From the NCBI GenBank assembly GCA_002395925.1, contig DGVM01000173.1, forward strand, positions 329 to 16,114: a stretch of DNA of 15,786 nucleotides. The letters are read 5' to 3'. Source of the DNA: Bacteroidales bacterium UBA4284. GTDB taxonomy: Bacteria; Bacteroidota; Bacteroidia; Bacteroidales; UBA932. The notes under the pieces were generated by a model. That model ran no database searches. It was not told where the DNA came from and was given only the letters and a program-made list of their open reading frames with translations. The position numbers and the translations under genes were made by a program. Positions 692 to 15,585 of the stretch are shown piece after piece; the first letter of the stretch is position 1, and each line of letters opens with the position of its first letter.

Positions 692-1672
692 ATGACCGAA
701 ACACAAGAAAATCTGCTGGCCGCCTACTTTGCCAACCAGCTCACGGACCAGCAAAGAGAAGAAATCCTTACTCTTTTAGATACAGATTCCGAATTTGCCA
801 CCCGCTTTGCCCAGATGGAAGAAGCCTACGTGGCCGCCTTCATCCCGGCGTTTGAAAAGACCAGGGAGGAAGATTTCCGGATTCTGGAGGAGAAAATCAA
901 TCCCCGCCGCCGGGTGTTCCCGTTCTGGAAACCCTTTGCCGTCGCCGCCAGCATCGCGGCCGTCATTGCCTGCGGCCTGGCTATCTACAACGGAAAGAAG
1001 TATCAGGATGCCGAGCGTTTCATCGCCCAGTCCGATGTCACCACCATCTCTGCCACGCAGGGATTCGGCACACAGACCCTGCTCCCGGACGGCACGCGTG
1101 TCTTCGTGAACGCTGCTTCTTCCGTGAGTTTCGGGAGGGATTTCGGCCGGGAAGGCCGGGAAGTGAAGATGGAAGGCGAGTGCCTCTTCGAAGTGGCCGC
1201 CGATGCCTCCCGTCCGTTCCGCGTCCACGCAGGAAACACTTGTGTTACGGTTAAGGGAACCGTCTTCAACGTACGCAGTTATGCCGACGAAGCCTCCATT
1301 TCCGTGTCTCTGCTGGAAGGTTCCGTGTTGCTCAGTTCCCCCTCCGGAGAAGTAACGCTCCGTCCCGGTACCTGCGCCATCGTCTCCCGGGAAGACGGGA
1401 AAATCCGGATGGAAAAAGCAGATCTGTCCGTTTCGGAATGGACCCGTGGCAAAATTGTTTTCACCGACAAAACCATCCCCGAGATTCTGAGTTACGTAGA
1501 GCGAATCTACGGTGTCCGCTTCCTCTACAACGAAGACCTTTTCCAGGGAGAACGCTTCACCGGCATCATCTCGTCCCGGCTTTCCATCGATGAGATCCTC
1601 TCCTACATAGACGTAGACCAAAAGTACGTGTGGCAAAAGCAGGAAGACTCGATCGTAATCCACAAAAAATAA
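692..1672 (+). CDS. FecR-type anti-sigma factor (inner membrane)
   Basis: A 326-aa anti-sigma factor expected to hold the neighbouring ECF sigma factor at the inner membrane and release it when the partner SusC signals. The N-terminal ~75 residues form the cytoplasmic sigma-binding part. One hydrophobic segment follows at about residues 80-100 (FAVAASIAAVIACGLAIY). The periplasmic FecR domain spans about 113-210 and includes LLPDGTRVFVNAASS, GECLFEVAADASRPFRV and VKGTVFNV. The C-terminal ~70 residues match the DUF4974 domain usual in Bacteroidetes FecR proteins (FTDKTIPEILSYVERIYGV). I chose the ATG at 692 because the in-frame TTG at 677 would place the start inside the tandem repeat. The length is normal for the family. 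The susC gene follows after 41 bp and carries the matching STN domain. Confidence 0.95.
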   Translation: MTETQENLLAAYFANQLTDQQREEILTLLDTDSEFATRFAQMEEAYVAAFIPAFEKTREEDFRILEEKINPRRRVFPFWKPFAVAASIAAVIACGLAIYNGKKYQDAERFIAQSDVTTISATQGFGTQTLLPDGTRVFVNAASSVSFGRDFGREGREVKMEGECLFEVAADASRPFRVHAGNTCVTVKGTVFNVRSYADEASISVSLLEGSVLLSSPSGEVTLRPGTCAIVSREDGKIRMEKADLSVSEWTRGKIVFTDKTIPEILSYVERIYGVRFLYNEDLFQGERFTGIISSRLSIDEILSYIDVDQKYVWQKQEDSIVIHKK

Positions 1673-1713
1673 CACACACACCATCCTATTTATTCTATCC
1701 ATCTATCCATTCT

Positions 1714-4700
1714 ATGAAAAAAATAACCACAAAGATTCTGGCAGCCGTATTCTGGCTCCTCCTGTCCCTGGCACCCGCCTGGGCCCAGGATGCAGGGAGC
1801 ACGGAGATTTCAGTCTCCTGTGACGGGACGGTCAAGGAAGTCCTTGACATCCTGTGCGAGAAGATTGACGGCAGCCTGCTTGTCCGAAGCACGGATGTAG
1901 ACCTTCCCCGGAAAGTGAGCATCCACGAGACCGAAGTGACGGTCAATGAAGTCCTGAGCCGGCTCTTTGAGGGCACGGACATCAAGTGGACCATCAACGG
2001 CAAGCAAATCCAGGTTTATCGTCCTCAAGCGCGGGACTCCAAGCTCAAGGGCGGGAACCGGACAGTAAGCGGTACCGTCATCGACGAAAGCGGCCTGCCG
2101 GTAATCGGTGCTGTCGTCCTCCTGGAAGGAACCGGGATAGCCAACATCACGGATGAGGACGGCCGCTGGTCCCTTACCGTCCCGCAATCGACCCGCGCCC
2201 TCAAGGTTTCCTGCCTGGGCTATGCCGATGCCTGGCTGTCCCTGGGGAACGAGACAATTTATGCGATGACCCTGAAGGAGGACATCTCTCTTTTGGAGGA
2301 ATCGGTGGTCGTCGGTTACGGCATCCAGAAAAAGAGCGTCGTGACGGCCGCCATCTCCAGTGTGAAGGGAGAGCAACTCGCGGGGATCGCGCCTACGCGT
2401 GTCGATAATGTATTGAAAGGTATGGTTTCCGGCGTTACCATCACGCCGGCCTCCGGCCAGCCCGGCAGCGGAACGCGCGTACGCATCCGCGGTACCGGTA
2501 CCATCAACGACTCCAACCCGCTGTACATCGTGGACGGAATGCCCGTCACCGGCGGCATCGAATACATCAACCCGGCCGATATCGAATCGGTAGAAGTGCT
2601 CAAGGACGCCGCCTCGGCCGCCATCTATGGTGCCCGCGGCGCCAACGGCGTTATCCTGGTCACCACCCGTCAGGGCTCGGAGGGCAAGAGCACGCTCAGT
2701 TACAATGCATCCTATGGCATCCAAAACCCCTGGAGAATGCCCTCGGTCCTGAACGCTACGGATTATGCGCTCATTATGAACGAGATGGAAATCAACGCCG
2801 GCCGTATGCCCATCTATTCCGACCCTTATTCCTTCGGGGAAGGCACCAGTTGGGTGAATGAAGTCTTTAACCGGAATGCTCCCGTGCTGGACCATCAGCT
2901 GAGCGTCTCCGGCGGCAACGCCAAGATGAACTACTTCATCTCCGGCAGTTATTTCTACCAGGAAGGTATCATCGGCGGTAACTACAACCACTCCAATTAC
3001 AGCCGTGCCACCCTGCGGGCCAACAACAACTACACCGTCTTCGACGCCGAGGACCGTTCTTTCCTCAAGCGTCTGCGCCTGGGAGTCAACATCACCTATT
3101 CTCACGACAACTCCAAGTCCATCCGCGCCAACTCCGAACAGGGTTCCGTGCTGGGCTCTGCGATGTCCCTCTCGCCGATGCTTCCGGTCTATGCCGAGAA
3201 TCCCGAAGCCCTGCTGGCCGAACATCCCAATGCCATCAAGGATTCCGAGGGACGTCCTTTCTCCATCGCCGGAGACCAATACGCGATGATGCCCAACCCG
3301 CTTTCCATCCTGCATATGCCCATTGACGACTACATCCAGGACAAACTGGTGGCCGGCGGCTATGCAGAATTGGAGATTATTCCCGGGCTGGTGTTCAAGT
3401 CCTCCGTGGGAGCCGACCTTCTCATTGTCAAGGACGACGGCTACAGCCTTCCCTACTATATGAATTCCAACCAGCAGAACGACGGTTCCACGGTCTGGTC
3501 TTCCCTGAGCCGGGGGTTCTCCTGGCAGTTGGAAAACACGCTGTCCTATACGTTCACGCTGGGAGAGAATCATCATTTCGTGGCCCTGCTGGGCCAGAGT
3601 GCCTATTCCCACGGGTCGGCCTATGTAAGCGGCACCAGTTACAAAATCCGCAATGCTTCCCAGCCCTGGATTGATGCTACGGACCAGGACTCGAACCAGC
3701 GCGGCGCAAGCGGGTCGCCGGATCCCCAAAGCCGCCTGGCCTCCTATTTCGCCCGTCTCAGTTACAACTACCAGGAGCGTTATATGGCCGAATTCACCCT
3801 GCGCCGGGACGGTTCCTCAAACTTTTCCCCGGCCAACAAGTGGGCCAACTTCCCGTCCGTCTCCCTGGGCTGGAACATTATGAACGAACCCTATATGGCT
3901 TCCGTCCGCCCCTCCTGGCTGGACCGCACCAAACTGCGCGTGAGTTACGGTGTGAACGGTAACCAGAACATCGGTTCCTTTGCCTACACCTCCATGATGC
4001 GTGGCATCGCCGGCTACCTCCTGGGCGTGGGCAACTTCACCGCCATCGCCCCCGGTATCATCCCCACCGCATATTCCAATGCAGACCTCAAGTGGGAGGA
4101 ATCCTCCCAGTTCAACGTCGGTTTGGATCTGGGTATCCTGAAAAACCAGCTGAGCATTTCGCTGGACTATTACGACAAGCGTACCAACGGGATGCTGATG
4201 AAGATGGCCCTGCCCTCCTACATCGGCAATTCGCTTCCCTGGGGCAACGTGGGTAATATGCGCAACTCCGGTTTCGAGTTCGACTTTACCTGGAAGCAGC
4301 AGCTGGGAGATTTTGGTTACAGCGTTGGCGCCAACGGCTCCTACAACAAGAACGTGCTCCTGAAAATGGGTAACGAGACCGGCTATCAGAACTACGACAC
4401 CGTCCAGGGTACCCTGGGAACCATCTCCCGAGGAGAAAACGGCAAGCCCTTCCCCTTCTTCTGGGGTTATAAGACGGCCGGCATCTTCCAGAGCGACATC
4501 GAAGCGATGGCCTATGTCAACGAAAGAGGCGAGCGCCTGCAGCCCAGTGCCGTGGCCGGCGACGTTAAGTTCGTGGACGTAAACGGAGACGGAGTCATCG
4601 ACGACGACGACCGCGTGATGATTGGTAAGGGTATGCCGGACTGGACCTTCGGCGTCAATCTGTCCGCCACCTGGAAAGGCTTCGACCTTTCCGCCAACTT

Positions 4701-5127
4701 CTATGCCGCCGTAGGTTGCGACATCTTCGACGCCACCTACCGTGCCGACTTTCCGAAGGTGAATATGCAGTCCTATATGCTGGGCCGATGGACTGGTCCC
4801 GGTACCTCCAGCCGCCTGCCCCGCCTCACCGGAGACGCAGACGGCGGCGCCAACCAGAACTGGCGCTGCTCGGACCTGATGGTCTACGACGGCTCGTTCC
4901 TGCGCCTGAGGAATCTCACCCTGGGATACACCCTGCCGGAGCATATCACCCGTCACGTGTTCATCTCGAAACTTCGTTTCTACCTGAACGCCGAGAACCT
5001 CTTCACGCTCACTCCCTACCACGGGCTGGATCCGGAAATCTCTTCCGGAGGCACCTCCCTGGGAATCGACAGGGGCGTATATCCGCAGGCCCGCACCTTA
5101 TCGGCCGGTATCAACTTAACCTTCTGA
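1714..5127 (+). CDS. SusC/RagA-family TonB-dependent glycan transporter with STN signalling domain
   Basis: A 1137-aa outer-membrane transporter that imports oligosaccharides with its SusD lid. A signal peptide (residues 1-24, ending AWA before Q25) is followed by an STN/secretin-TonB N-terminal domain (about 30-102), a carboxypeptidase-D regulatory-like domain (about 116-200, VSGTVIDESGLPVIGAVV), the pre-plug motif EESVVVGYGIQKKS, a plug with VRIRGTGTINDSNPLYIVDG, and the beta-barrel. Near the C-terminus are the usual NGDGVIDDDDR segment and LNAENLFTLTPYHGLDPE, and the protein ends in an aromatic residue (F). The STN domain marks a transporter that signals to FecR, which fits the two upstream genes. 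I chose the ATG at 1714 because it begins the signal peptide; longer in-frame starts overlap fecR. The susD start codon lies next to, or overlaps, the stop, so the pair is co-translated. Confidence 0.97.
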   Translation: MKKITTKILAAVFWLLLSLAPAWAQDAGSTEISVSCDGTVKEVLDILCEKIDGSLLVRSTDVDLPRKVSIHETEVTVNEVLSRLFEGTDIKWTINGKQIQVYRPQARDSKLKGGNRTVSGTVIDESGLPVIGAVVLLEGTGIANITDEDGRWSLTVPQSTRALKVSCLGYADAWLSLGNETIYAMTLKEDISLLEESVVVGYGIQKKSVVTAAISSVKGEQLAGIAPTRVDNVLKGMVSGVTITPASGQPGSGTRVRIRGTGTINDSNPLYIVDGMPVTGGIEYINPADIESVEVLKDAASAAIYGARGANGVILVTTRQGSEGKSTLSYNASYGIQNPWRMPSVLNATDYALIMNEMEINAGRMPIYSDPYSFGEGTSWVNEVFNRNAPVLDHQLSVSGGNAKMNYFISGSYFYQEGIIGGNYNHSNYSRATLRANNNYTVFDAEDRSFLKRLRLGVNITYSHDNSKSIRANSEQGSVLGSAMSLSPMLPVYAENPEALLAEHPNAIKDSEGRPFSIAGDQYAMMPNPLSILHMPIDDYIQDKLVAGGYAELEIIPGLVFKSSVGADLLIVKDDGYSLPYYMNSNQQNDGSTVWSSLSRGFSWQLENTLSYTFTLGENHHFVALLGQSAYSHGSAYVSGTSYKIRNASQPWIDATDQDSNQRGASGSPDPQSRLASYFARLSYNYQERYMAEFTLRRDGSSNFSPANKWANFPSVSLGWNIMNEPYMASVRPSWLDRTKLRVSYGVNGNQNIGSFAYTSMMRGIAGYLLGVGNFTAIAPGIIPTAYSNADLKWEESSQFNVGLDLGILKNQLSISLDYYDKRTNGMLMKMALPSYIGNSLPWGNVGNMRNSGFEFDFTWKQQLGDFGYSVGANGSYNKNVLLKMGNETGYQNYDTVQGTLGTISRGENGKPFPFFWGYKTAGIFQSDIEAMAYVNERGERLQPSAVAGDVKFVDVNGDGVIDDDDRVMIGKGMPDWTFGVNLSATWKGFDLSANFYAAVGCDIFDATYRADFPKVNMQSYMLGRWTGPGTSSRLPRLTGDADGGANQNWRCSDLMVYDGSFLRLRNLTLGYTLPEHITRHVFISKLRFYLNAENLFTLTPYHGLDPEISSGGTSLGIDRGVYPQARTLSAGINLTF

Positions 5128-5135
5128 TGCATCCT

Positions 5136-6686
5136 ATGAAAGCGAAATATATCCTTTTATCCCTTCTCGCCGTGCTGGGTTCCTGCACTACCTCCTTCCT
5201 GGAGGTGGAGCCCACTACCATCATCCCGGAAGAGGACAGCTATAAGACAGAGTCGGACATCTCCAAGGCCCTGATGTCGGCCTATGCCCCGCTCATCGCC
5301 CTGGACTTCTGCCGCAGCGATTTCACGCCCAAGGGCGAGTATCATCCCTACCAGTTCATCTCGGACATCCTGGCCGATGATTACAACGCGGTGGGCGGCA
5401 GCGGTGAAGCCGACTGCCCCTATCTGCAGCTTATGTTCAAATACCGCCTCACCCCACAGCAGAGCCTCATTTCCCTTTGGGAGGCCATTTACAGGGGCAT
5501 CTACCGCAGCAACATCGTGGTAAACCGTATTGACGAAGTGGAAGGCATCTCGGAAGCAAACCGGGACCGCTATGTGGCCGAGGCCAGATTCCTCCGCGCC
5601 TTCTACTATCACATCCTGTGGAAGTTCTGGGGCAACGTTCCCTACTACAACGTGAACCCGAACGGAAAAGACGTCCCCTACATCGTTCCGCAGTTTACGG
5701 CCGACCAAGTCTACGACAAGATTATCGAAGACCTGGACTGGGTTACCTCGGAGGACCGCCTGCCCGAAGCCGTTACGCTTACGCAGGTGGGCCGCGTAAA
5801 CCGTTACGCCGCCTATATGCTCCGTGCCGACGTCGTGATGCTCCAGAAAGATGCTTCCCGCTACAGCAGCGTGCTCAAGCAGTTGCAGGATATCATCGGC
5901 TCGGATATTTACGCCCTGATGCCTGACTTTGCCGACATCTGGCAGGAGTCCGGCGAATGGTGCTGCGAATCCATCTGGGAGATCAACTACTCGGACAATC
6001 CCTCGAACCGCGAGTGGGGAGACGAATACGCTCCCGGCGGCACCATCTATCCCACGTTCATCTGCCCGGATTCCTATAAGGGAACGCGCTTTGCCCGGGA
6101 AGGCTATGGCTTTGGTCCTGTGAGCAAGGCCCTCAAGGCCGCCTATGCCGATGGAGACCAGCGTCGCGACGCCTCCATTATGGACTTCAACACCGACGCC
6201 CTGCCCGGAGAGAAATACAACCCCCGTATGGGAGATACCGGGATGTTCAACAAGAAGTATATGGGCCGGGCCGACGGATATTCGGCCTATATCGGAACCG
6301 GCAGCCCGGAACTGAACTTCCGCTACAACCTGCGCATCTACCGTTACTCGGAGGCCCTTCTCCGCGCTTCGGAACTGCTGGTCCGCACCGGCGGCTCGCA
6401 GGCTCAGGCAGACATTTACCTGAATATGGTTCGGGCCCGCGCCTTCTCCACCACGGTAGACCAGTTGCCCGCCAGTCTCAAGAAAACCGCCACCCTGGAC
6501 AACCTCCTGGATGAATATCGCCTGGAATTCGCGATGGAAGGTCACCGCTTCTTCGACCTGGTCCGCTTTGACAAGGCCGATGCCGTCCTGGGCGCCAAAG
6601 GTTATTCCGCGCTCAAGCGCTACCTGCCCATTCCGCAGTCGGAGATCGACCGCAGCGAAGGCACCCTCAAGCAAAACGATTATTAA
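5136..6686 (+). CDS. SusD/RagB-family outer-membrane glycan-binding lipoprotein
   Basis: A 516-aa lipoprotein that caps the SusC barrel and binds oligosaccharide. The signal peptide ends in the lipobox LGSC with Cys17 lipidated. SusD hallmarks are AEARFLRAFYYHILWKFWGN in the tetratricopeptide-like core, the C-terminal EYRLEFAMEGHRFFDLVRF, and the final PIPQSEIDRSEGTLKQNDY. It is full length and lies directly after susC. I chose the ATG at 5136 because it gives a compact signal peptide. The ATG at 5127 overlaps the susC stop (TGATG) and would add three residues; it remains a real alternative and would couple translation. Substrate cannot be read from the sequence. Confidence 0.96.
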   Translation: MKAKYILLSLLAVLGSCTTSFLEVEPTTIIPEEDSYKTESDISKALMSAYAPLIALDFCRSDFTPKGEYHPYQFISDILADDYNAVGGSGEADCPYLQLMFKYRLTPQQSLISLWEAIYRGIYRSNIVVNRIDEVEGISEANRDRYVAEARFLRAFYYHILWKFWGNVPYYNVNPNGKDVPYIVPQFTADQVYDKIIEDLDWVTSEDRLPEAVTLTQVGRVNRYAAYMLRADVVMLQKDASRYSSVLKQLQDIIGSDIYALMPDFADIWQESGEWCCESIWEINYSDNPSNREWGDEYAPGGTIYPTFICPDSYKGTRFAREGYGFGPVSKALKAAYADGDQRRDASIMDFNTDALPGEKYNPRMGDTGMFNKKYMGRADGYSAYIGTGSPELNFRYNLRIYRYSEALLRASELLVRTGGSQAQADIYLNMVRARAFSTTVDQLPASLKKTATLDNLLDEYRLEFAMEGHRFFDLVRFDKADAVLGAKGYSALKRYLPIPQSEIDRSEGTLKQNDY

Positions 6687-6710: not shown

Positions 6711-8072
6711 ATGAAGAGCATCATCAAACTTATGACCGTCGCCGCCCTGTGCGCAGCCCTGGCTGCCTGCGGCGAGAAAAACAAGGGCGGTGAAGAACCC
6801 GCCGGCAAACCTGTCATCACTCCCGATATGTTCTCGGTGAATGCCAACTCAGAAACGGGCGTGGTTGTCTTCCAGTTCCTGGATGCCAACCTGAATCCCT
6901 TCTGGACCGTCAAGGACCCCAACAACGAAACTATGACTTTCACAGACCGCAATGTCACCAAGACCTTCGAAGCGAAGGGCCCGTACAGCGGTACGCTGGT
7001 AGCCTACGGCGCCGCAGGCCAGAGCGACCCGGCCGAGTTTAACTTCGTCATTGGAAACGGCTCCTGGGATTCGGATCTGAGCTACATCGAAAATATGCTT
7101 ATGGCCAACACCTGGAGGCCCTACTTCCTGGGCTGGAAAGGCGGAGAAGGCGAGGAGAGCTGGAATTCTGTAGACAGGGCTCCCGGATACCTCTTCGACG
7201 ACCGTGTCGTCTTCAAGAAAGGCGGGGTCATCGAGTGGAACCAGGCCGAAACCAAAACCATTTATGACGACCGCGTAGGCGGCGTGGAGTATTCGTTTAC
7301 CGGCAGTGAGAAGTGGGCCTATGTGAAGGAGGGCGACAAAGAGTACCTTCAGTTCTCGAACGGCGGTTTCCCGGGCATCCTGGCCGACGAAGCTTCCAAG
7401 AATGGCAAGTACCTGATTACCGATGTAACTGCCACTTCCGTCACCCTGAACTACTATGTGGTCCAGGAAGAGCCTTACTGGCTGTATGTGACCCTCGCCC
7501 CCGAAGACTGGGTGGCACCGGATCCGTCCATCAACACCGACGTCACCGTAGATGAGGCCAAGGCAGCCCTCTCCGGCAAGAAGTTCAAGATCTCCGAACT
7601 GGGCTGGTGGGGCGGCACGCCTGGTGGCGAGGATTACTGGGAATATTTCACCGTGGCATCGGAGGGTGAACTCCCCGCCTATATGAATAACGATTATATC
7701 ATTTTCAACGCCAACGGTTCCCTGGTATATGAACTTGCTATGGACGAGATTGTCAAGGAAGGGGAAGATCCTAAGAGCGGCCATTTCATCTACAATGATG
7801 CCGGTCTTGTCGATTATACTGCTACCGGCAGTGAGAAATGGAGCGTTATCACCGACGGCGGTGCCACTACAGTCCAATTTGCCGACGGTGGTTTCCCGCT
7901 GGCAATTGCCGGTAATGCAGCGGTAGCCTCCACGGAGCCGGAATACTGGTTCGGCCAAAGCGGCAAATGGCTTGTGATGTCCATCGATACGGACGGAACC
8001 GTGCGTCTGGATATCTACCAGAGTTTCAATGGACAGTATGTTTCCGTATCCCTTACCCCTGTCGCTGAATAA
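6711..8072 (+). CDS. Probable surface glycan-binding lipoprotein with duplicated lipocalin-like module
   Basis: A 453-aa lipoprotein in the position after susD where PULs usually encode SusE/SGBP-type surface binding proteins. The lipobox LAAC puts the lipidated Cys at residue 20. About residues 33-117 look like a PKD/Ig-type beta domain, common as the spacer in such proteins. Two homologous modules follow, about 124-270 and 280-453. They share LGWKGGEGEESW / LGWWGGTPGGEDYW, TGSEKW (from residues 198 and 373) and FSNGGFP / FADGGFP. The modules look like lipocalin-like beta-barrels and resemble the middle domain of the lipoprotein at 9245-11008. No catalytic motif is seen. Aromatic-rich loops fit glycan binding, but that is inferred from context. 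The gene starts 24 bp after susD in an AT-rich gap and is followed 11 bp later by the GH16 gene, so it is probably in the same operon. Confidence 0.75.
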   Translation: MKSIIKLMTVAALCAALAACGEKNKGGEEPAGKPVITPDMFSVNANSETGVVVFQFLDANLNPFWTVKDPNNETMTFTDRNVTKTFEAKGPYSGTLVAYGAAGQSDPAEFNFVIGNGSWDSDLSYIENMLMANTWRPYFLGWKGGEGEESWNSVDRAPGYLFDDRVVFKKGGVIEWNQAETKTIYDDRVGGVEYSFTGSEKWAYVKEGDKEYLQFSNGGFPGILADEASKNGKYLITDVTATSVTLNYYVVQEEPYWLYVTLAPEDWVAPDPSINTDVTVDEAKAALSGKKFKISELGWWGGTPGGEDYWEYFTVASEGELPAYMNNDYIIFNANGSLVYELAMDEIVKEGEDPKSGHFIYNDAGLVDYTATGSEKWSVITDGGATTVQFADGGFPLAIAGNAAVASTEPEYWFGQSGKWLVMSIDTDGTVRLDIYQSFNGQYVSVSLTPVAE

Positions 8073-8083
8073 ATCCCGGCACA

Positions 8084-9085
8084 ATGAAGCACCTTCTTTT
8101 CTTCATACTAAGTGGTTGCTTGATTCTCGCGTCCTGTTCCGGCAAGGATCCGGTGTACTGGTACAATCCGGAAACCGGAACAGGGAGCGCGGGGAGCAAT
8201 GTTCCCTATTATCCGGAAAAGCCCGGCAGCGGCAGTTCCACGAACCCTACGGACGGCTATGCCCCCGCGGGCTACAACCTGGTCTGGAGTGATGAGTTCA
8301 CCTCGGCCACGCAGCTCTACTCGGACTGGTACTTCGAGTCCGGCGGCACCGGCTGGGGTAACGGCGAACTGCAGTACTACTGCCCCGCAGGCACTTTTGA
8401 CGCCACGGGTCAGAAGACGGCCGCGCTCACCAGTGACGGCACGCTGAAGATCACGGCCTACAAGATTGCCGACCAGTACAAGGCCTACACCAACGGGAAG
8501 TCCTACATCTCGACCCGTATGAACACCAACAAGGGCTGGATGCACGGCTACATCGAGATGCGCGCCAAACTGCCTCTGTCCAAGGGGATGTGGCCCGCTT
8601 TCTGGATGCTGCTCAAGGACGGTCCCTATTGGGTGCTGGATCCCAGCAAGACGGGAGCCGAGATTGATATTATGGAGTATGTAGTCAATCCTCCGGACAA
8701 TCCGAAGGATATGGTCTATTTCTCGGCGCACAGCTACAATGCCACCCCGGAAGGGGCCGAAGGCAAGAACTCCGGCTATGTAGATCCGCAGACTCACGTC
8801 AAGTATGCTTACTGCCAGTGGGTCAAGATTAACAAGCCCGAGGAGTGGCACTGCTACGGGATGGAATGGACGCACGAGTTCATCCGCGGCCTGTTGGACG
8901 GGGTAGAGTATTTCTATGTACCCAATCCCAAGCCCAATGAGGTCGATCTTGCCACCTGGCCGTTCGACCAGGTGTTTAATCTCAAGCTCAATCTCGCCGT
9001 GGGCGGCAGTTGGGGCGGTGAACCCGCCGCTACCTTTACCGAGGACTCGTACGAGATTGATTGGGTAAGAGTTTTTCAAAAATAG
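8084..9085 (+). CDS. GH16 family endo-beta-glycanase lipoprotein (laminarinase/O-glycanase-like)
   Basis: A 333-aa lipoprotein (lipobox LASC, Cys18) with a Gly/Ser/Pro-rich tether to about residue 60 and one GH16 beta-jelly-roll domain (about 64-333). The active-site motif is EIDIME: E193 nucleophile, D195, E198 acid/base. The extra residue before the last Glu is the beta-bulge form found in laminarinase-type GH16. Substrate-cleft motifs GTGWGNGELQYY (88-99) and WPAFWML (170-176) are intact, as is the C-terminal NLAVGGSWGG. The enzyme should cut internal beta-glycosidic bonds at the cell surface. GH16 of this form includes beta-1,3-glucanases and host-glycan endo-beta-galactosidases (O-glycanases); sequence alone does not choose between them, but the nearby GH20 favours a GlcNAc-containing substrate. 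The ATG at 8084 lies 11 bp after the previous stop and begins the signal peptide. Confidence 0.93.
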   Translation: MKHLLFFILSGCLILASCSGKDPVYWYNPETGTGSAGSNVPYYPEKPGSGSSTNPTDGYAPAGYNLVWSDEFTSATQLYSDWYFESGGTGWGNGELQYYCPAGTFDATGQKTAALTSDGTLKITAYKIADQYKAYTNGKSYISTRMNTNKGWMHGYIEMRAKLPLSKGMWPAFWMLLKDGPYWVLDPSKTGAEIDIMEYVVNPPDNPKDMVYFSAHSYNATPEGAEGKNSGYVDPQTHVKYAYCQWVKINKPEEWHCYGMEWTHEFIRGLLDGVEYFYVPNPKPNEVDLATWPFDQVFNLKLNLAVGGSWGGEPAATFTEDSYEIDWVRVFQK

Positions 9086-9091
9086 CGAATT

Positions 9092-9232
9092 ATGAAAACA
9101 CTAGAACTAGAATATACCACCCCCACATCGACTCTGGTCGAGATTCAGATTGAACAGAGTATAGCCGTCCTCTCATATGACAAGACGAACGGAACCAATA
9201 ACTTCGACGAAGACGAAGAGGAAGAGATCTAA
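9092..9232 (+). CDS. 46-aa acidic peptide, first member of a paralogous pair
   Basis: A short gene in the 159-bp gap between the GH16 and lipoprotein genes: ATG 9092, TAA 9230-9232. It starts 6 nt after the GH16 stop and ends 12 nt before the next ATG. It has no signal peptide or membrane segment and ends in a very acidic tail (FDEDEEEEI). Its reality is supported by a homolog at 11063-11200. The two align without gaps at an offset of one residue, with 15 identities over residues 8-41 here (Y8, P11, T12, L15, E17, E21, I24, A25, L27, S28, Y29, N33, T35, F38, D41). Both precede a fimbrillin-like lipoprotein gene by the same distance. I do not recognise the function. A conserved first part with a variable hydrophilic tail recalls leader-type small ORFs; no peptide-modifying enzyme is nearby. 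Confidence 0.7.
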   Translation: MKTLELEYTTPTSTLVEIQIEQSIAVLSYDKTNGTNNFDEDEEEEI

Positions 9233-9244
9233 AAGAATACAGCC

Positions 9245-11008
9245 ATGAAAAAGATTTGGAAATATATGATGGTTGCTCTTGCGGGTCTTGCCCTGCTTGC
9301 TTGCAGCAATAAGGAACTAGTTCCGGAAGAGGAGCCCGTTGAGGAAGGTTATATCTATAACATTGAAATAGTTCAAACCAAGGCCGTTTTTGATGAGAAT
9401 CATATGGCCTGGGAGGGGGGCGATGTGATTGGCTGGTTTACTGACAAGGCCGGCAGCTCGGGGATTGATATGTCTAAAGATCCCCGCCGTTTCACCGTGA
9501 GCAGCACAGCTGCTATGGCGGCCGGGTCTAAGGTGTATGCCTACGCGCCCTATAAAGCTGGCGAGCAAAGCGAGACGGCTGCGCCGCTGAGTATTCCTAC
9601 GTCTCAGAGTGGTGACGATATCAAGGACGCAATGCCTATGGTGGCACTGCCAATCGAACTGGCGGCTGATATGGATGCCGATACTCCCACGTCTGCCGGG
9701 CAGGCCTACTTTATCGGCCTGGGCTCTGTTATCAGGTACAATGTGTACACGTCGGATGATACCTACGGTGAAGAGAAGGTGGAAAGCATTACCTTCACCT
9801 CCACGTCCAACATTGCCGGTGACTTTACGGTAGATCTCACGGGCGTATCCGAGGAATCCCTTCCTACCATTGACGGCTTGGACCAGAAATCTGTCACTTC
9901 CACTCTGCCCATCGCCACTACCGTGGGTAATAGCAAGCCCAATGGCATCAAGGTTTACCAGGTTATTGCGCCGGGGACCTATTCCGGTACGATTAGAGTC
10001 TTTACGGATCAGGCTGTTTATGAGTATAGCATTAGTAACAAGGTGTTTACCTTTGGTAAGATTAAACCATTCAATGTAGATTTAGCCAGCGTCAATGCTA
10101 CGCGGTTAAGTTGGACCGAGTATCTGTTGACGAAATCTGCATGGCGTCTTACTGGTGTAAAGAAAGATGGAGAGAGCCAGACAACTTCCGTTGGAAATAT
10201 CGTTTCTTTCAAGAGAGATGGGACACTCGTGTTTGACTGTCTGGCAAATGATGGAAAGTCCTATGACCATACTTGGACGGGAAGCCTTATAGACATTCCT
10301 AAATACTATGGTTGGTCTCTTGATGATATGAGATGGAGCATCAATACACGAGATGAAAAGCGTTTCATCGATATTAACGATGGTTATCTTCTCGTTTATG
10401 TTCAAGGTGATCAAGGGAAGGAATACGGATATTATGAAATTGTCGAAATTAACGCCTCCTCGTTAACAGTCTCCATTAAAACGTATGGACAGACATATAC
10501 TCTCTATTTTGAAGCCGCAGATAGATCACGCGCTTATGAGCATTCGTTTGCTATTGGAGATTTTGGACTTACAGAAGAGAATATTTGGTCAGATCCCATT
10601 ACTGACAACTTGAGCGGAGTGTCCTGGACTCTAGCGAACGATCAAGGAGCATATAAGATCACTACGCCATGGGAATGGGCCGGAACTGTGATTTGGAACG
10701 GTTGGGCTTGGGAATATGAACCTACCGTTGTCACTCTTACCTCCTCATCTATTGGAGGAACGATCACATCTATTAATTTGGACTTCACAATCGGAGCTAA
10801 TTGGGAGTTGACTGCGAATTGTACAGTCGGTGGTGCAGATTTCGGCACGCAGAATCAGCATTTTACTAATACTACAGGGGACACTCCTAAACAAACTGCG
10901 ACTTTTACTGGTAATGGTAACGGGACGATAGTAATCACAGTTACTCAACCGTCGAATACTGGGACGCCCATTATGCTCCGAGGAATCAACGTGACATATT
11001 TACTTTAG
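9245..11008 (+). CDS. Fimbrillin-like lipoprotein with lipocalin-like and beta-sandwich C-terminal domains
   Basis: A 587-aa lipoprotein (lipobox LLAC, Cys20; the following SNKE resembles a Bacteroidetes surface-export signal). Residues about 34-286 form a fimbrillin/Mfa-like domain (MAWEGGDVIGWF, FTSTSNIAGDFTVDLTGVSE). It is clearly homologous to the N-terminus of the 11213-13996 protein, and both end VDLAS-x-NATR. Residues about 287-430 resemble the lipocalin-like modules of the 6711-8072 protein. Residues 433-587 are a diverged copy of the beta-sandwich repeated twice in the GH16 fusion; HSFAIGDFG, LTSSSIGGTITS and CTVGGADFG match HTFANGDWG, LTSSSFPGEITK and CKVGGFDFG. No catalytic motif is seen, so a surface glycan-binding or adhesion role is inferred. 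From about 10100 onward the DNA is much more AT-rich than its neighbours (10381-10440 has 21 G+C in 60), suggesting that the C-terminal half has a different history. Confidence 0.8.
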   Translation: MKKIWKYMMVALAGLALLACSNKELVPEEEPVEEGYIYNIEIVQTKAVFDENHMAWEGGDVIGWFTDKAGSSGIDMSKDPRRFTVSSTAAMAAGSKVYAYAPYKAGEQSETAAPLSIPTSQSGDDIKDAMPMVALPIELAADMDADTPTSAGQAYFIGLGSVIRYNVYTSDDTYGEEKVESITFTSTSNIAGDFTVDLTGVSEESLPTIDGLDQKSVTSTLPIATTVGNSKPNGIKVYQVIAPGTYSGTIRVFTDQAVYEYSISNKVFTFGKIKPFNVDLASVNATRLSWTEYLLTKSAWRLTGVKKDGESQTTSVGNIVSFKRDGTLVFDCLANDGKSYDHTWTGSLIDIPKYYGWSLDDMRWSINTRDEKRFIDINDGYLLVYVQGDQGKEYGYYEIVEINASSLTVSIKTYGQTYTLYFEAADRSRAYEHSFAIGDFGLTEENIWSDPITDNLSGVSWTLANDQGAYKITTPWEWAGTVIWNGWAWEYEPTVVTLTSSSIGGTITSINLDFTIGANWELTANCTVGGADFGTQNQHFTNTTGDTPKQTATFTGNGNGTIVITVTQPSNTGTPIMLRGINVTYLL

Positions 11009-11024
11009 TATTTATGGGATTTGA

Positions 11025-11044
11025 TCCCTCCCGCCGGGGAGGGA
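11025..11044 (+). terminator. Strong GC hairpin after the fimbrillin-like gene (weak terminator or attenuator)
   Basis: TCCCTCCC (11025-11032) pairs perfectly with GGGAGGGA (11037-11044) around a GCCG loop. It lies 16 nt after the stop codon and 18 nt before the next peptide ATG. Only three T follow (TTTAAAAC), so it is not a classic intrinsic terminator. It may pause RNA polymerase or protect mRNA ends, giving different amounts of the genes on either side. Confidence 0.5.
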
Positions 11045-11062
11045 CCGTTTAAAACAAAGAAT

Positions 11063-11200
11063 ATGAAAGACACTAAAGCTTATATACCTCCCACAGTGGA
11101 ACTGCTGGAGCTCCGGACAGAGAGCACCATCGCAACGCTTTCCTACAACGAGGAGAACTTCACTGAGTATTTCGGCTTTGATTCAGAATATACCCTCTAA
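11063..11200 (+). CDS. 45-aa acidic peptide, second member of the paralogous pair
   Basis: A short gene (ATG 11063, TAA 11198-11200) between the hairpin at 11025-11044 and the GH16 fusion gene, ending exactly 12 nt before its ATG. It is homologous to the peptide at 9092-9232, sharing the pattern Y-x2-PT-x2-L-x-E-x3-E-x2-IA-x-LSY and then N-x-T-x2-F. The C-terminal tail (about 32-45) differs and is acidic and aromatic rather than poly-acidic. There is no signal peptide, Cys or membrane segment. Recurrence of both sequence and spacing makes a chance ORF unlikely. Function unknown. Possibilities are a translational leader for the lipoprotein, a small cytoplasmic partner, or a precursor peptide without a visible maturation enzyme. 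Confidence 0.7.
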   Translation: MKDTKAYIPPTVELLELRTESTIATLSYNEENFTEYFGFDSEYTL

Positions 11201-11212
11201 AACGACACTACG

Positions 11213-13996
11213 ATGAAAAAGTTATTCAAATACCTTTTCGTTGCTGCCGCGGCCTGTACCCTGGCAGCCTGCGCCGTGAAAGAGGAACAGCCTATCGACA
11301 ACGGCGAAGAATCTATTACCTTCTTCCTGAGTGATGGAGTAAAGGCCGTAATGGAAAACAACTATATGGCCTGGCAGGAAGGAGATATGATTGGATGGAC
11401 CAACTCAAGAGCCAGTTCAGGCGGTTCTTCCGTCGTGAATCTGGAAACCAATCCGCACTCCTTCACGGTTACCAATAATACTGGTACACCCTGGGGAACC
11501 ATCAGTTCGCATAAGACGACCTTCTATTTCTATGCGCCTTACAAAGAAGGCTCGACAAAAAATGCCGTTCATTTTTCCATTCCCACAGCACAAGATGGAA
11601 AACTGACAAACTCAATGCCCTTGGTGGCGGCTCCGTTTGAGCATACCGGTTCCATCAAGAATACCGAATCTGCCAGCTTCAACAACAATGAAAACCGAAT
11701 GATCCAGTTTATGGGTCTGGCTTCCATTGCGCAGTTTAAGGTATTCACCACCAATGCAGAATATGGTACCGAACAGGTCCAGAGCGTCAATTTCACCTCC
11801 GACTCCGACATTGCTGGAGATTTCACGGCCGATATTACCGGAGTGAGCGAGGAAAACCTCCCGACCATCACTGGGCTCAGCGGAAAGAGCATCACTGCCA
11901 CTCTCGCAACTTCCGCTACCGTGGGTGCTAACAAAGCAGCGGCAATCGATGTGAATATGAGCCTTGCACCTGGCACCTGGTCCGGCACCGTGACCGTGGA
12001 GACCACCGGCGCCACCTATGTCATTCCGCTCAATAACGTTCCCTTCAACCGTGGCCGAATCAGGCCCCTTGTCGTGGACCTCGCAAGTCCCAATGCCACC
12101 CGTACACCGAAGAGCAGTGGCCCCGCCAGCCCGTACTGGCATACCTTTGCCAACGGCGACTGGGGTATTGGCCCTGTCAAAGACTGGGGCGGATGGGAAG
12201 ATGGCTATTACTACGAGCAACTCACTCACCCCGTCACCCTTGACGGCGCTACTTGGGACCTGACCGACGCCGGTTATTTCGAATGGGCTGGAACTCAGGC
12301 AGAATCCGGCTGGCGTCACGGCATCCAGCTAGGGACGGGTGGTATGACTGTCTACTCCTTTAAACTGACCTCCTCCTCCTTCCCCGGAGAAATAACGAAA
12401 GTTACCCTGGGCTACAACTCCGGTATTACGGACGGCAGCAGTCTCACCGTCAGCTGTAAGGTAGGTGGTTTTGACTTTGGTTCCCCCGTGGCACACGGAG
12501 ACGGGGATTATGAAGCCGAATTCACCGGCAGTGCTTCCGGCAACATTGAGATTTCAGTTTCTTCCACGGCAAAAGGAGCCATTTATCTCTACTACGTTGC
12601 CGTAGAGTATGATCCCAACTCCGGTGGCGGTGCAGATTCCGGACCGGCTTGCCCGTATTGGCATACTTATGCCAACGGTGACTGGGGTGTCGGCCCTGTC
12701 AAAGACTGGGGCGGATGGGAAGATGGCTATTACTATGAGCAGCTCACCCATCCTGCAACCCTGGACGGCGCTTCTTGGAATCTGACCGACGCAGGCTACT
12801 TCGAATGGGCTGGAACTCAGGCAGAATCCGGTTGGCGCCACGGTATCCAGCTGGGGACGGGCGGTATGACGGTTTCTTCCTTTAAAATGACCTCTTCCTC
12901 CTTCCCCGGAGAAATAACGAAAGTTACCCTGGGCTACAACTCCGGTATTACGGACGGCAGCAGCCTCACCGTCAGTTGTAAAGTGGGTGGTATCGCCTTT
13001 GGCACCCCCGTGGCACACGGAGATGGGGATTATGAAGCCGAATTCACTGGCAGTGCGTCCGGTACCATTGAGATTTCCGTTTCCTCTACGGTAAATGGAG
13101 CCATCTATCTCTACTACGTTGCTGTAGAGTATAATCCCAGCTCCGGTGGCATAGATCCTTTCGACAGTATGACGCCGGCCGAAATCCGTGCCGCCTATTC
13201 TCCAACCTGGCAGGATGAATTCGAAGGAAGTTCTGTCAATACCGGGAGTAATGGCTGGGTCTTCCAGACGGGTGGTACCGGTTGGGGGAATAACGAAATT
13301 CAGTATTATGTCAACCAGTCCGTCAAGATTGGGGGCGCCACCTACAACACGGCTGAAGTGAGCGACGGAACGCTCAAAATCAACAGCTACAATGTTCCGT
13401 ACCAGGGTAAGAATTATATATCTGCCCGTATGTACACGAAGCAGCACTGGAAGCACGGCCTCATTGAGATGAAAGCCAAGCTCCCTACAACCAAGGGCTG
13501 CTGGAGCGCCTTCTGGATGCTGCCCCAGTCCGGTTCTTCCTATGTGCGTGACGCCAGTATGGACGGTGGAGAACTTGATATCGTAGAGTATGTACCGAAT
13601 GACGACCCGAAGAATGCTTACTTCTCTGCACACAGCTACTACACAACGAAGGAAGCCATAGATGAGGGAGATTTCGTTTACTACCCCGGCAACGTAGATT
13701 ACCACGACAGCTATACTCTCAGTTCTAACACCACGGCCCAGAATGACTGGCATACCTATTCTATGGTGTGGACTGACAAGTACGTCAAGGCCTACGTGGA
13801 CGACAATCTGTTCTACACCGCTCCGAACCCTTATCCGGGTCAGCACAACCTGCCCTATTGGGCATTCGACCAGGATTACTACATCCTGCTCAACCTGGCC
13901 ATCGGAGGAGACTGGGGCGGCATTCCGGCTGCCTCCTGGCCCAATCCGGCTGTGTTTGAGGTAGATTACGTCAAGGTTTATCAATCCGGTTATTGA
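11213..13996 (+). CDS. Multidomain GH16 lipoprotein: fimbrillin-like domain, two beta-sandwich repeats, GH16
   Basis: A 927-aa surface lipoprotein. The lipobox LAAC gives Cys20, and the next residues AVKEE fit the acidic surface-export signal of Bacteroidetes lipoproteins. Residues about 30-301 are fimbrillin/Mfa-like, homologous to the 9245-11008 protein and ending NATR. Two beta-sandwich repeats begin at residues 307 and 481, with a period of exactly 174 residues. They are about 90% identical, rich in Trp/Tyr, and probably bind carbohydrate. The GH16 domain runs from about residue 662 to the end. Its catalytic motif is ELDIVE (E787, D789, E792, beta-bulge form), with GTGWGNNEIQYY and WSAFWMLP as in the other GH16. 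The enzyme should cut internal beta-glycosidic bonds while held to its substrate by the repeats. The family's catalytic domain is about 250-270 aa, so the extra ~650 residues are accessory. The GH20 start codon follows after 5 nt. Confidence 0.92.
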   Translation: MKKLFKYLFVAAAACTLAACAVKEEQPIDNGEESITFFLSDGVKAVMENNYMAWQEGDMIGWTNSRASSGGSSVVNLETNPHSFTVTNNTGTPWGTISSHKTTFYFYAPYKEGSTKNAVHFSIPTAQDGKLTNSMPLVAAPFEHTGSIKNTESASFNNNENRMIQFMGLASIAQFKVFTTNAEYGTEQVQSVNFTSDSDIAGDFTADITGVSEENLPTITGLSGKSITATLATSATVGANKAAAIDVNMSLAPGTWSGTVTVETTGATYVIPLNNVPFNRGRIRPLVVDLASPNATRTPKSSGPASPYWHTFANGDWGIGPVKDWGGWEDGYYYEQLTHPVTLDGATWDLTDAGYFEWAGTQAESGWRHGIQLGTGGMTVYSFKLTSSSFPGEITKVTLGYNSGITDGSSLTVSCKVGGFDFGSPVAHGDGDYEAEFTGSASGNIEISVSSTAKGAIYLYYVAVEYDPNSGGGADSGPACPYWHTYANGDWGVGPVKDWGGWEDGYYYEQLTHPATLDGASWNLTDAGYFEWAGTQAESGWRHGIQLGTGGMTVSSFKMTSSSFPGEITKVTLGYNSGITDGSSLTVSCKVGGIAFGTPVAHGDGDYEAEFTGSASGTIEISVSSTVNGAIYLYYVAVEYNPSSGGIDPFDSMTPAEIRAAYSPTWQDEFEGSSVNTGSNGWVFQTGGTGWGNNEIQYYVNQSVKIGGATYNTAEVSDGTLKINSYNVPYQGKNYISARMYTKQHWKHGLIEMKAKLPTTKGCWSAFWMLPQSGSSYVRDASMDGGELDIVEYVPNDDPKNAYFSAHSYYTTKEAIDEGDFVYYPGNVDYHDSYTLSSNTTAQNDWHTYSMVWTDKYVKAYVDDNLFYTAPNPYPGQHNLPYWAFDQDYYILLNLAIGGDWGGIPAASWPNPAVFEVDYVKVYQSGY
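12131..12628 (+). repeat. Intragenic repeat copy 1 (beta-sandwich module)
   Basis: First of two 498-bp units inside the GH16 fusion gene, coding from PYWHTFANGDWG to about SGGG. It matches 12653-13150 at a constant 522-bp offset with no indel visible. A block of more than 60 bp (from TCCTTCCCCGGAGAAATAAC) is identical in both, so the duplication looks recent or kept uniform by gene conversion. Confidence 0.9.
12653..13150 (+). repeat. Intragenic repeat copy 2 (beta-sandwich module)
   Basis: Second unit of the tandem duplication, about 16 amino-acid differences from copy 1 over ~166 residues. The differences are mostly conservative (F/Y, I/V, T/S, D/N), but FDFGS to IAFGT and VYSF to VSSF change residues that could alter a ligand surface. 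It leads directly into the linker before the GH16 domain. Confidence 0.9.
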
Positions 13997-14001
13997 TTAA
14001 T

Positions 14002-15585
14002 ATGAAACTACACCTTCTCCCTATAGTTCCCCTATTGGCCGCAGCCTGCACGCAGGCTCCTGTAGAAGAACCGCATATCGTCCCCCAGCCAGCGCACCTG
14101 ACCCGGCTGGAGGGGACGGCTCCGGTGTCCGAAATCCGCTTCGTCCGCGATGAATCCCTGGCTCCGGAAGCATACATCCTCGATGCCCGGGAAGACGGCA
14201 TCACCATCACGGCGTCATCCCGCAGCGGCGAGCTATATGCCCTGGCTACGATCAAGCAGATGCTGCCGCCTTCCGCCCTCCCGTGGAACGGGGAGAAGGG
14301 CGTTTCGTGGCGTATCCCCGCCGTTCACATCGAAGATGCCCCTCGCTTTGCCTACCGCGGTCTGCACCTGGACCCCTGCCGTCATTTCTTTGACGTTGCC
14401 GAGGTAAAGCGCTACATAGACGTAATGGCCCTTTACAAACTGAACAATCTTCACCTGCACCTGAACGACGATCAAGGCTGGCGCGTGGAAATCAAGTCCC
14501 GCCCCCGTCTCACGGAAGTGGGTGCCTGGCGCAGCGGTTCCTGCATAGAGGCCGAGCACGGAAACTCCGACGGAATTCCCCACGGCGGCTTCTATTCGCA
14601 GGAAGAGTTGAAGGAACTGGTGGCCTACGCGGCAGAACGCGGCATCAACATCGTCCCGGAAATCGACCTTCCCGGCCATATGCTGGCCGCCCTGGCTTCT
14701 TATCCCGAACTCGGCTGCACCGGCGGCCCCTATGAGGTCTGGACCCGCTGGGGCATTTCCGACGATGTGCTGTGCGTGGGCAAGGAAGAGACGTTCCGTT
14801 TCCTGGAGGATGTGTTGGGAGAGATTTGCGAGGTTTTCCCTTCTCCCTATATCCATATCGGAGGAGACGAGTGTCCCAAGAAACGCTGGGCCTCCTGCCC
14901 GCGTTGTCAGGCCAAAATGAAGCAGCTGGGGCTTCGCGACACCGAGTACGGAACCAAGGAACAGTATCTTCAGAACTATGTAACCGCCCGTATGCAGGCT
15001 TTTCTGGAAGGGAAGGGCCGCAAGATTATCGGCTGGGACGAGATTCTGGAAGGGGAGCTGGCACCCGGTGCCACCGTGATGTCCTGGCAGGGGACCCAGG
15101 GTGGAATCGATGCATCGGCCCGCGGCTTCGACGTGATTATGTCGCCTTATACCTTCCTGTACCTGGACTACTATCAGAGCCGGGAGCGAGACAGAGAGCC
15201 CTATGCCATTGGAGGATACCTTCCCACGGAGCAAGTGTACAGCTATGAGCCGTTTGACGAACTGGATTCCTTCCAGCAGAGCCACATCCTGGGTGTACAG
15301 GCCAACTTATGGACGGAGTATATCCCTACCGCTCACCAGTTAGAGTATATGCTTCTGCCGCGTCTATGTGCCCTGAGTGAAATCCAGTGGTGCACGCGCG
15401 AGAACCGTGACTTCGTGCGATTCAAGGAGAGCCTGCATCACCAGTTTGCCATCCTGGACGCCCTGGGCTATACCTACTGCCAGGAGGTCTTTGGCATTAT
15501 TGGGATGCCCCCCAACCAATATCCGGCCCGTACCCCCGAAGAATTGGAAGCCTACCTGGCCCAACCCACCGACCGTACGTGGTAG
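14002..15585 (+). CDS. GH20 beta-N-acetylhexosaminidase lipoprotein
   Basis: A 527-aa lipoprotein (lipobox LAAAC, Cys16) of glycoside hydrolase family 20, which removes terminal beta-linked GlcNAc or GalNAc by substrate-assisted catalysis. A short GH20b-type N-terminal domain (about 20-100) is followed by the TIM-barrel from residue 116 (FAYRGLHLDPCRHFF). HLHLNDDQGW, the catalytic pair D289-E290 in HIGGDE, GWDEI, MSWQG, LDYYQ and LWTEY (W437, E439) are all present, so the enzyme should be active. I chose the ATG at 14002, which begins the signal peptide; an in-frame TTG at 13993 overlaps the previous stop. It is the last gene of the apparent operon, 5 nt after the GH16 fusion. The N-terminal domain seems somewhat shorter than usual. 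With the GH16 enzymes it suggests stepwise breakdown of a HexNAc-containing glycan. Confidence 0.95.
   Translation: MKLHLLPIVPLLAAACTQAPVEEPHIVPQPAHLTRLEGTAPVSEIRFVRDESLAPEAYILDAREDGITITASSRSGELYALATIKQMLPPSALPWNGEKGVSWRIPAVHIEDAPRFAYRGLHLDPCRHFFDVAEVKRYIDVMALYKLNNLHLHLNDDQGWRVEIKSRPRLTEVGAWRSGSCIEAEHGNSDGIPHGGFYSQEELKELVAYAAERGINIVPEIDLPGHMLAALASYPELGCTGGPYEVWTRWGISDDVLCVGKEETFRFLEDVLGEICEVFPSPYIHIGGDECPKKRWASCPRCQAKMKQLGLRDTEYGTKEQYLQNYVTARMQAFLEGKGRKIIGWDEILEGELAPGATVMSWQGTQGGIDASARGFDVIMSPYTFLYLDYYQSRERDREPYAIGGYLPTEQVYSYEPFDELDSFQQSHILGVQANLWTEYIPTAHQLEYMLLPRLCALSEIQWCTRENRDFVRFKESLHHQFAILDALGYTYCQEVFGIIGMPPNQYPARTPEELEAYLAQPTDRTW

Follow-up and report, generated by a model that had tools for sequence, protein, structure and literature searches.

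The fibres on which gut and rumen Bacteroidales feed are decided by the capture of glycans at the cell surface. Here we describe two tiny acidic peptide genes, each followed at once by the gene of a large lipoprotein, in a stretch of 15,786 nucleotides (nt) of Bacteroidales bacterium UBA4284 (contig DGVM01000173.1, positions 329 to 16,114; the whole stretch is hereafter called the window) that looks like a polysaccharide-utilisation-type locus. Several described systems come close to parts of this arrangement. The Mfa/FimA-type fimbrillin-like proteins (PF13149 and relatives; structures 4k4k, 3ufi and 3t2l) are among the closest known to the N-terminal domain of the lipoproteins; the window lipoproteins differ from them in lacking a match to PF13149 (Mfa_like_1; up to E 0.1) and in carrying further domains, and strong PF13149 genes go without such a peptide. 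The surface glycan-binding protein SGBP-B of Bacteroides fluxus (7kv5 and, with laminaritriose, 7kv7) resembles another part of the first lipoprotein, a putative glycan binder with a different N-terminal scaffold. Leader open reading frames (ORFs) acting by termination and reinitiation are also a known system; the peptide genes are like them in being short upstream ORFs with a small gap and, in one third of junctions, a Shine-Dalgarno sequence (SD) at the stop, and unlike them in that the peptide family is conserved at the protein level and that the gene order is reversed in a second lineage. Finally, like the SD-bearing rpsU and rpsR genes of Bacteroidota, described in PMC9976891, they involve a set of SD genes in a class reported to be SD-blind; unlike in rpsU and rpsR, the genes concerned are lipoprotein genes behind a peptide, and the motif is GGAGG rather than the extended SD of rpsU.

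The reading that we favour, with middling confidence, is that the product of each ORF is a genuine companion protein some 46 residues long, which is not exported and is probably produced in tandem with a single large surface protein that is exported and belongs to the polysaccharide-utilisation system. A wider proposal, tentative and as a whole somewhat doubtful, is that Bacteroidales of at least two groups possess unnamed cytoplasmic companions of exported surface proteins, one per partner. In one group the partners would be lipoproteins; in the other they carry a sorting-like domain at the C-terminus. Part of the partner starts would, on this proposal, be read by means of an SD at the companion stop, which would set them apart from the SD-blind initiation reported for the class.

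Two related peptides in front of two related lipoproteins

The two modules are made up as follows.

9092-9232, + strand: peptide gene 1, small, acidic, 46 residues, Y-x2-P core and acidic tail (ORF; likeness to peptide 2)
9233-9244, + strand: gap of 12 nt between peptide 1 and lipoprotein 1, without GGAGG (sequence)
9245-11008, + strand: lipoprotein 1 gene, 587 residues (ORF, lipobox, AlphaFold2 model)
11063-11200, + strand: peptide gene 2, small, acidic, 45 residues (ORF; alternative longer TTG start at 11021)
11201-11212, + strand: gap of 12 nt between peptide 2 and lipoprotein 2, without GGAGG (sequence)
11213-13996, + strand: lipoprotein 2 gene, 927 residues (N-domain alignment, PF00722)

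A preliminary description of the window had given the two ORFs, their lengths and the gap of exactly 12 nt between each stop and the next ATG (9245 and 11213), all correctly. Its count of 15 identities over residues 8-41 of peptide 1 was likewise confirmed, and rises to 16 at the same one-residue offset if the alignment is extended to residue 43. The local alignment score of the pair is 75, whereas none of 20000 shuffles is as good, the best of them scoring 54; BLASTP gives E 1e-8 in a single comparison. Neither peptide matches any Pfam or NCBIfam family, and a protein search with the two sequences alone recovered only themselves (P0002 being the peptide 2 protein with a longer start). Homologs of peptide 1 stand at the corresponding position in L001, L002 and other loci.

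The homology claimed for the N-terminal parts of the two lipoproteins was also borne out: they align from residue 1 across some 290 N-terminal residues (the alignment as a whole has E 2e-63), with 44% identity between the N-domains. A scan of genome contigs with lipoprotein 1 alone found no relative, while a scan with the alignment found 16 loci. A peptide-like ORF precedes the related N-domain at six of these (L001, with a GTG start, L002, L007, L011, L012 and L015). In L001 the gene order is that of the window, namely a GH16-like gene (glycoside hydrolase family 16; named by its likeness to the window GH16), a peptide gene and a three-domain lipoprotein gene, the last with 46% identity over 599 columns. 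Behind this first module of L001 lies a GH16-like frame (2993-3640), listed without an N-terminal signal part, which is cut, broken or differently started.

The preliminary description had further concluded that the unit was duplicated as a whole. A recent local duplication is unsupported, for lipoprotein 1 is more similar to 18 of 23 further homologs in the lipoprotein alignment (45-67%) than to lipoprotein 2 (44%). The two copies of the module are therefore old, or arrived separately.

An unnamed peptide family rich in paralogs

As judged from sequence comparison, the window peptides belong to a paralog-rich family, which is unnamed in Pfam and NCBIfam. Its members have an N-terminal core with Y-x2-P, a hydrophobic-alternating stretch and then often [IVL]-C-x-S, followed by an acidic tail with glycine, asparagine and aromatic residues that is almost free of lysine and arginine. 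The counts of tails, adjacency, GGAGG and co-inheritance given here and below refer to loci fetched through a match to a peptide, a partner or a control family, and not to a random sample of genomes. Among 110 members preceding a lipoprotein the median length is 46, Y-x2-P is present in all (110/110) and a cysteine stands before x-S/P in 61; the tails have a mean net charge of -4 and about 2.5% lysine plus arginine, with an acidic residue in the last six positions in 99/110 and an aromatic one in the last five in 84/110. The 15-residue hydropathy exceeds 1.6 in 1/110, so that the family has no signal-like hydrophobic stretch, in agreement with the earlier statement that the peptides lack a secretion signal.

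A profile built from eight members gave 3-13 matches (E<=1) in each of ten genomes, and one built from 40 members gave 162 matches (E<=0.01) in 15 genomes, most of those listed sitting in open frames of 41-100 codons. The first profile matched (E<=0.1) in 22 of 99 genomes from the family of genome G001 and the second (E<=0.001) in 7 of 198 genomes drawn from its order; the peptide family is therefore concentrated in some lineages. A search with the alignment of 40 peptides returned 134 protein clusters, and among the 120 listed the named ones are called only 'hypothetical protein'. Seven wider members gave two sub-threshold Pfam matches and no NCBIfam match. Titles and beginnings of abstracts in the literature reveal no work on such peptides; subscription papers and supplements were outside this search, so that the family may have been listed somewhere as a cluster of small proteins.

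A comparison of nonsynonymous and synonymous changes had been put forward as a check on the peptides. It indicates protein-level constraint in the family, as all 26 peptide pairs of at least 55% identity have pN<pS (proportions of nonsynonymous and synonymous differences), and the rate ratio dN/dS lies between 0.08 and 0.68 (median about 0.27) in 20 of them, the other six being saturated; these pairs are not mutually independent and hold no window peptide. That the ORFs arose by chance or are non-coding, as might be thought from their shortness and their lack of library matches, is hardly credible, because the shuffles, the substitution pattern and the tests of association described below all oppose it.

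The build of the family, with a conserved N-terminal half and a variable tail, and its many paralogs per genome (23 matches in genome G008, 24 in G218) would also suit precursors similar to those of ribosomally synthesised and post-translationally modified peptides, in which a conserved leader precedes a variable C-terminal core destined for modification or export. We regard this as quite improbable. No maturation enzyme or peptide transporter was recognised among the main genes of the window (the SusC- and SusD-like genes being unscanned) or, at other loci, among the adjacent genes, which were the only ones covered there; the tails are acidic and patterned, as the counts above and a recurrent R-x3-W-x3-E in the second lineage show; and no NCBIfam model matches. 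The suggestion of a precursor in the preliminary description thus gained no support here.

Association with lipoprotein genes

The profile search that had been called for, with tabulation of the gene downstream, finds homologs beside lipoprotein genes in other genomes. The 276 records fetched contain 153 distinct peptides. An ORF follows within 400 nt in 142 of these, and in 113 it was called as a lipoprotein gene; the lipoprotein label is a pattern call that by eye missed several, and at least one of the 113 looks spurious (L117, gap 387). The gap is at most 60 nt in 110 of the 113 and exceeds 60 nt in three. Where the profiles of lipoprotein and peptide meet within 250 nt, they do so on the same strand for 35 of 93 lipoprotein matches and on the opposite strand for none. 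This comparison covers 93 of 101 lipoprotein matches, eight being omitted as frame pieces or matches to later parts of the profile only, and in genomes G001-G010 it takes 97 of 107 peptide matches, those among the matches listed; it is not fully independent, since the peptide seeds trace to loci found through the lipoprotein and some of the peptides tested are themselves seeds.

Among control loci, a peptide lies upstream in 1/30 for PF13149 (a weak match, L143) and in 0/29 usable ones for SusD (of 30; the gene start of L182 falls outside the locus). Of the PF13149 genes scoring >=80, none in 21 (out of 25) is preceded by a peptide, compared with 11 of 27 weaker ones, which were partly picked for a seemingly nearby peptide; some partners in related genomes do match PF13149. 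Peptides and partners also travel together beyond chance: in 26 of 106 modules the partner of the nearest peptide is among the three nearest partners, against a mean of 2.9 and a maximum of 9 after shuffling.

In L052, L053, L055, L056, L003, L005 and L010 some peptides directly precede, with an overlap of 1 nt or a gap of 18 nt, a gene whose product begins with a short hydrophobic stretch and has a motif resembling QGWV.YP.Y.DR.

Start signals at the junctions

The identical spacing of 12 nt had been taken as a hallmark of the unit. It is indeed the commonest gap, found at 22 of 113 peptide-lipoprotein junctions, but control junctions within operons peak at the same value (22/125, p 0.74), so that a gap of 12 nt is ordinary for the lineage and was rejected as a mark of the module.

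What does distinguish the junctions is the motif GGAGG. It occurs in the 22 nt before the ATG of 38 of 110 lipoprotein genes behind a peptide and of 10 of 119 other lipoprotein genes, while it precedes the start of only 2 of 151 peptide genes and 5 of 165 other ORFs. With gaps restricted to 4-40 nt, 35/98 peptide-lipoprotein junctions carry it as against 6/125 other operon junctions (Fisher 4e-9), one of these six (L269) itself starting behind a peptide; within genomes G001-G010 the figures are 15/60 and 5/108 (p 2e-4, stratified chi-square 11.4). The motif is closely placed: 36 of 43 occurrences begin between -1 and +7 nt from the end of the peptide stop, and 31 of 38 junctions have it 7-8 nt before the ATG. 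Genomes with GGAGG on or beside the stop of the first gene include G004, G006-G009, G044, G062, G094 and G107, among others.

Ribosomes of Bacteroidia are reported in PMC9976891 not to recognise SDs, the tail of the 16S rRNA being held by bS21, bS18 and bS6, and certain ribosomal-protein genes (rpsU, rpsR) are given there as SD-bearing exceptions in Bacteroidota. The same source calls SDs 'most rare' in Flavobacteriales, so that Bacteroidales may be less strict. Against this background the enrichment at the peptide stop would be a sharp exception to the SD-independent initiation reported for the class, and it points to coupled restart in some of the modules.

Such coupling would be expected if the peptide gene were a cis-acting leader ORF, whose translation and termination set the expression of the lipoprotein gene, by termination and reinitiation or by nascent-chain effects of the acidic tail, and whose released product is inert. 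The frequency and position of GGAGG fit this well, as do stop/start overlaps of -4 and -1 at 5/113 junctions, and an enriched SD needs a reason in organisms whose ribosomes reportedly ignore it (PMC9976891). We nevertheless hold a leader to be rather unlikely. Masking of the lipoprotein start by RNA structure is unsupported (unpaired fraction 0.515 vs 0.533, p 0.19); both window junctions are without GGAGG; no Rfam family is found in the window at the gathering threshold; and the gene order in a second lineage, to which we now turn, is mostly the reverse of that required.

A second lineage with reversed gene order

With a further profile, peptides are found in 13 of the 15 G218-family genomes (E<=1e-4) and in 7 of 295 drawn from its order. 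They share the N-terminal core and have a tail in which R-x3-W-x3-E is nearly invariant. At 23 of 30 loci of this lineage, several of them near-duplicates, the peptide gene lies -4 to +63 nt behind a large exported-type gene whose product has a shared C-terminal motif, judged by eye and then aligned; at three other loci the peptide is followed, after 42-78 nt, by an exported-type gene, and four show neither arrangement. No ATG ORF of >=100 codons starts within 160 nt behind those 23 peptides. In a later, partly overlapping set of 34 loci (within L286-L335), three have such an ORF behind the peptide, at 6, 87 and 128 nt; this set was picked after the first count, so that the share of its loci with the motif, 31/34, is subject to bias.

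A downstream regulated gene as the rule for the whole family, as a leader would demand, is thus not what these loci present. The leader named as one option in the preliminary description could hold for the window lineage, and leaves the reversed order elsewhere unexplained. What is constant across both lineages is adjacency on the same strand to an exported-type surface protein, and not gene order.

The partners of the second lineage (L286-L335) have a common C-terminal domain in their last 45-85 residues (Y.L.G.R....KG..I.NGKKV.VK). It matches no Pfam or NCBIfam model; PF18962 and TIGR04183, which we take to be models of type IX secretion C-terminal sorting domains, matched 0/27 C-terminal pieces up to E 0.05. 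The domain profile picks up three solved chains, 4kca, 8bbl and 7jvi, each in its C-terminal part (E 4e-6 to 2e-5), and these seem to carry the domain; weaker matches of the profile to the chains of an unrelated toxin (E 0.01-0.03) were taken as chance. In L330 a large protein ends with the peptide motif, in frame, and in L317 a lipoprotein frame begins with it; each is a single locus, where an effect of assembly or mutation is possible.

A proposed cytoplasmic companion of exported proteins

A trans-acting companion is favoured over a pure leader because the constant element is a small, constrained peptide without a signal beside one exported-type surface protein, and among the options raised in the preliminary description a cytoplasmic partner of the exported protein is the best fit. 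In this reading the window ORFs would be translated, and translation of peptide and partner would be coupled, ribosomes that finish at the peptide stop restarting at the lipoprotein ATG, with help from GGAGG at the stop in about one third of related modules. The peptide would then act in trans in the cytoplasm on the synthesis or export of its partner, whose chain it might hold while nascent or before export, or whose output it might adjust; this last step is the weakest. The family, whose tiny genes number up to some two dozen in a genome, mostly for one surface protein each, would then be a hidden layer in the making or export of surface proteins.

Several observations weigh against the companion. 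As to the association, 40 of the 153 peptides have no called downstream lipoprotein (some are lipoproteins by eye), no peptide was found in front of 58 of the 93 partner relatives (peptides among the matches listed), and the same holds at 9 of the 16 first loci, with a long ORF there in eight; the Mantel correlation of peptide and partner similarity over all pairs is 0.085, with 0.094 as the best of 500 permutations. As to coupling, GGAGG is missing from 63/98 peptide-lipoprotein junctions as well as from those of the window. AlphaFold2 gives the peptide no confident fold (mean predicted local distance difference test, pLDDT, 68.8). Lastly, the peptides of the two lineages have mainly the N-terminal core in common, and what joins them into a single family is a profile match (best E 5.8e-8, in one genome).

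A regulator of anti-sigma-like or RNA-binding type, which would signal to the cell that a surface protein is being made and control genes other than its partner, would likewise be small, soluble and present in many paralogs, and the window does contain genes for a sigma factor of the extracytoplasmic function (ECF) type and a FecR-type protein. We find it improbable: no known regulator family is matched, and one locus has two peptides, each before its own lipoprotein gene.

The lipoproteins and their locus

The partners of the window peptides are glycan-utilisation proteins, one a fimbrillin-like scaffold with glycan-binding-type domains and the other a GH16 enzyme. The term 'fimbrillin-like' used for them earlier is apt for the N-terminal scaffold, and does not extend to the glycan-binding-type domains and the GH16 domain. 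Lipoprotein 1 has no Pfam or NCBIfam match. Structure matches of its AlphaFold2 model (mean pLDDT 84.7) give a fimbrillin-like domain at about residues 31-287, with an Mfa/FimA-like fold, a domain at about 287-426 resembling the C-terminal part of B. fluxus SGBP-B, and a domain like a carbohydrate-binding module at about 427-587. Together with its lipobox and its place in a presumed SusC/SusD locus, the latter two domains make it a candidate surface glycan-binding protein. By sequence, the lipoprotein profile found no solved structure for the N-domain, and two weak viral-capsid matches outside it.

The other genes of the window are the following, the SusC- and SusD-like ones being putative.

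63-593: ECF sigma factor gene (family match)
677-1672: FecR-type gene (family match)
1630-5127: SusC-like gene (ORF; true start later)
4716-6686: SusD-like gene (ORF; true start later)
6711-8072: lipoprotein gene, no family above cut-off
8084-9085, + strand: GH16 lipoprotein gene, directly 5' of peptide 1 with a 6-nt gap (PF00722, E 8.2e-17)
13993-15585: glycoside hydrolase family 20 (GH20) gene

In lipoprotein 2 the GH16 domain is at residues 720-876 (PF00722, E 9.9e-14), and two very similar repeats, read from the sequence, lie between it and the N-domain.

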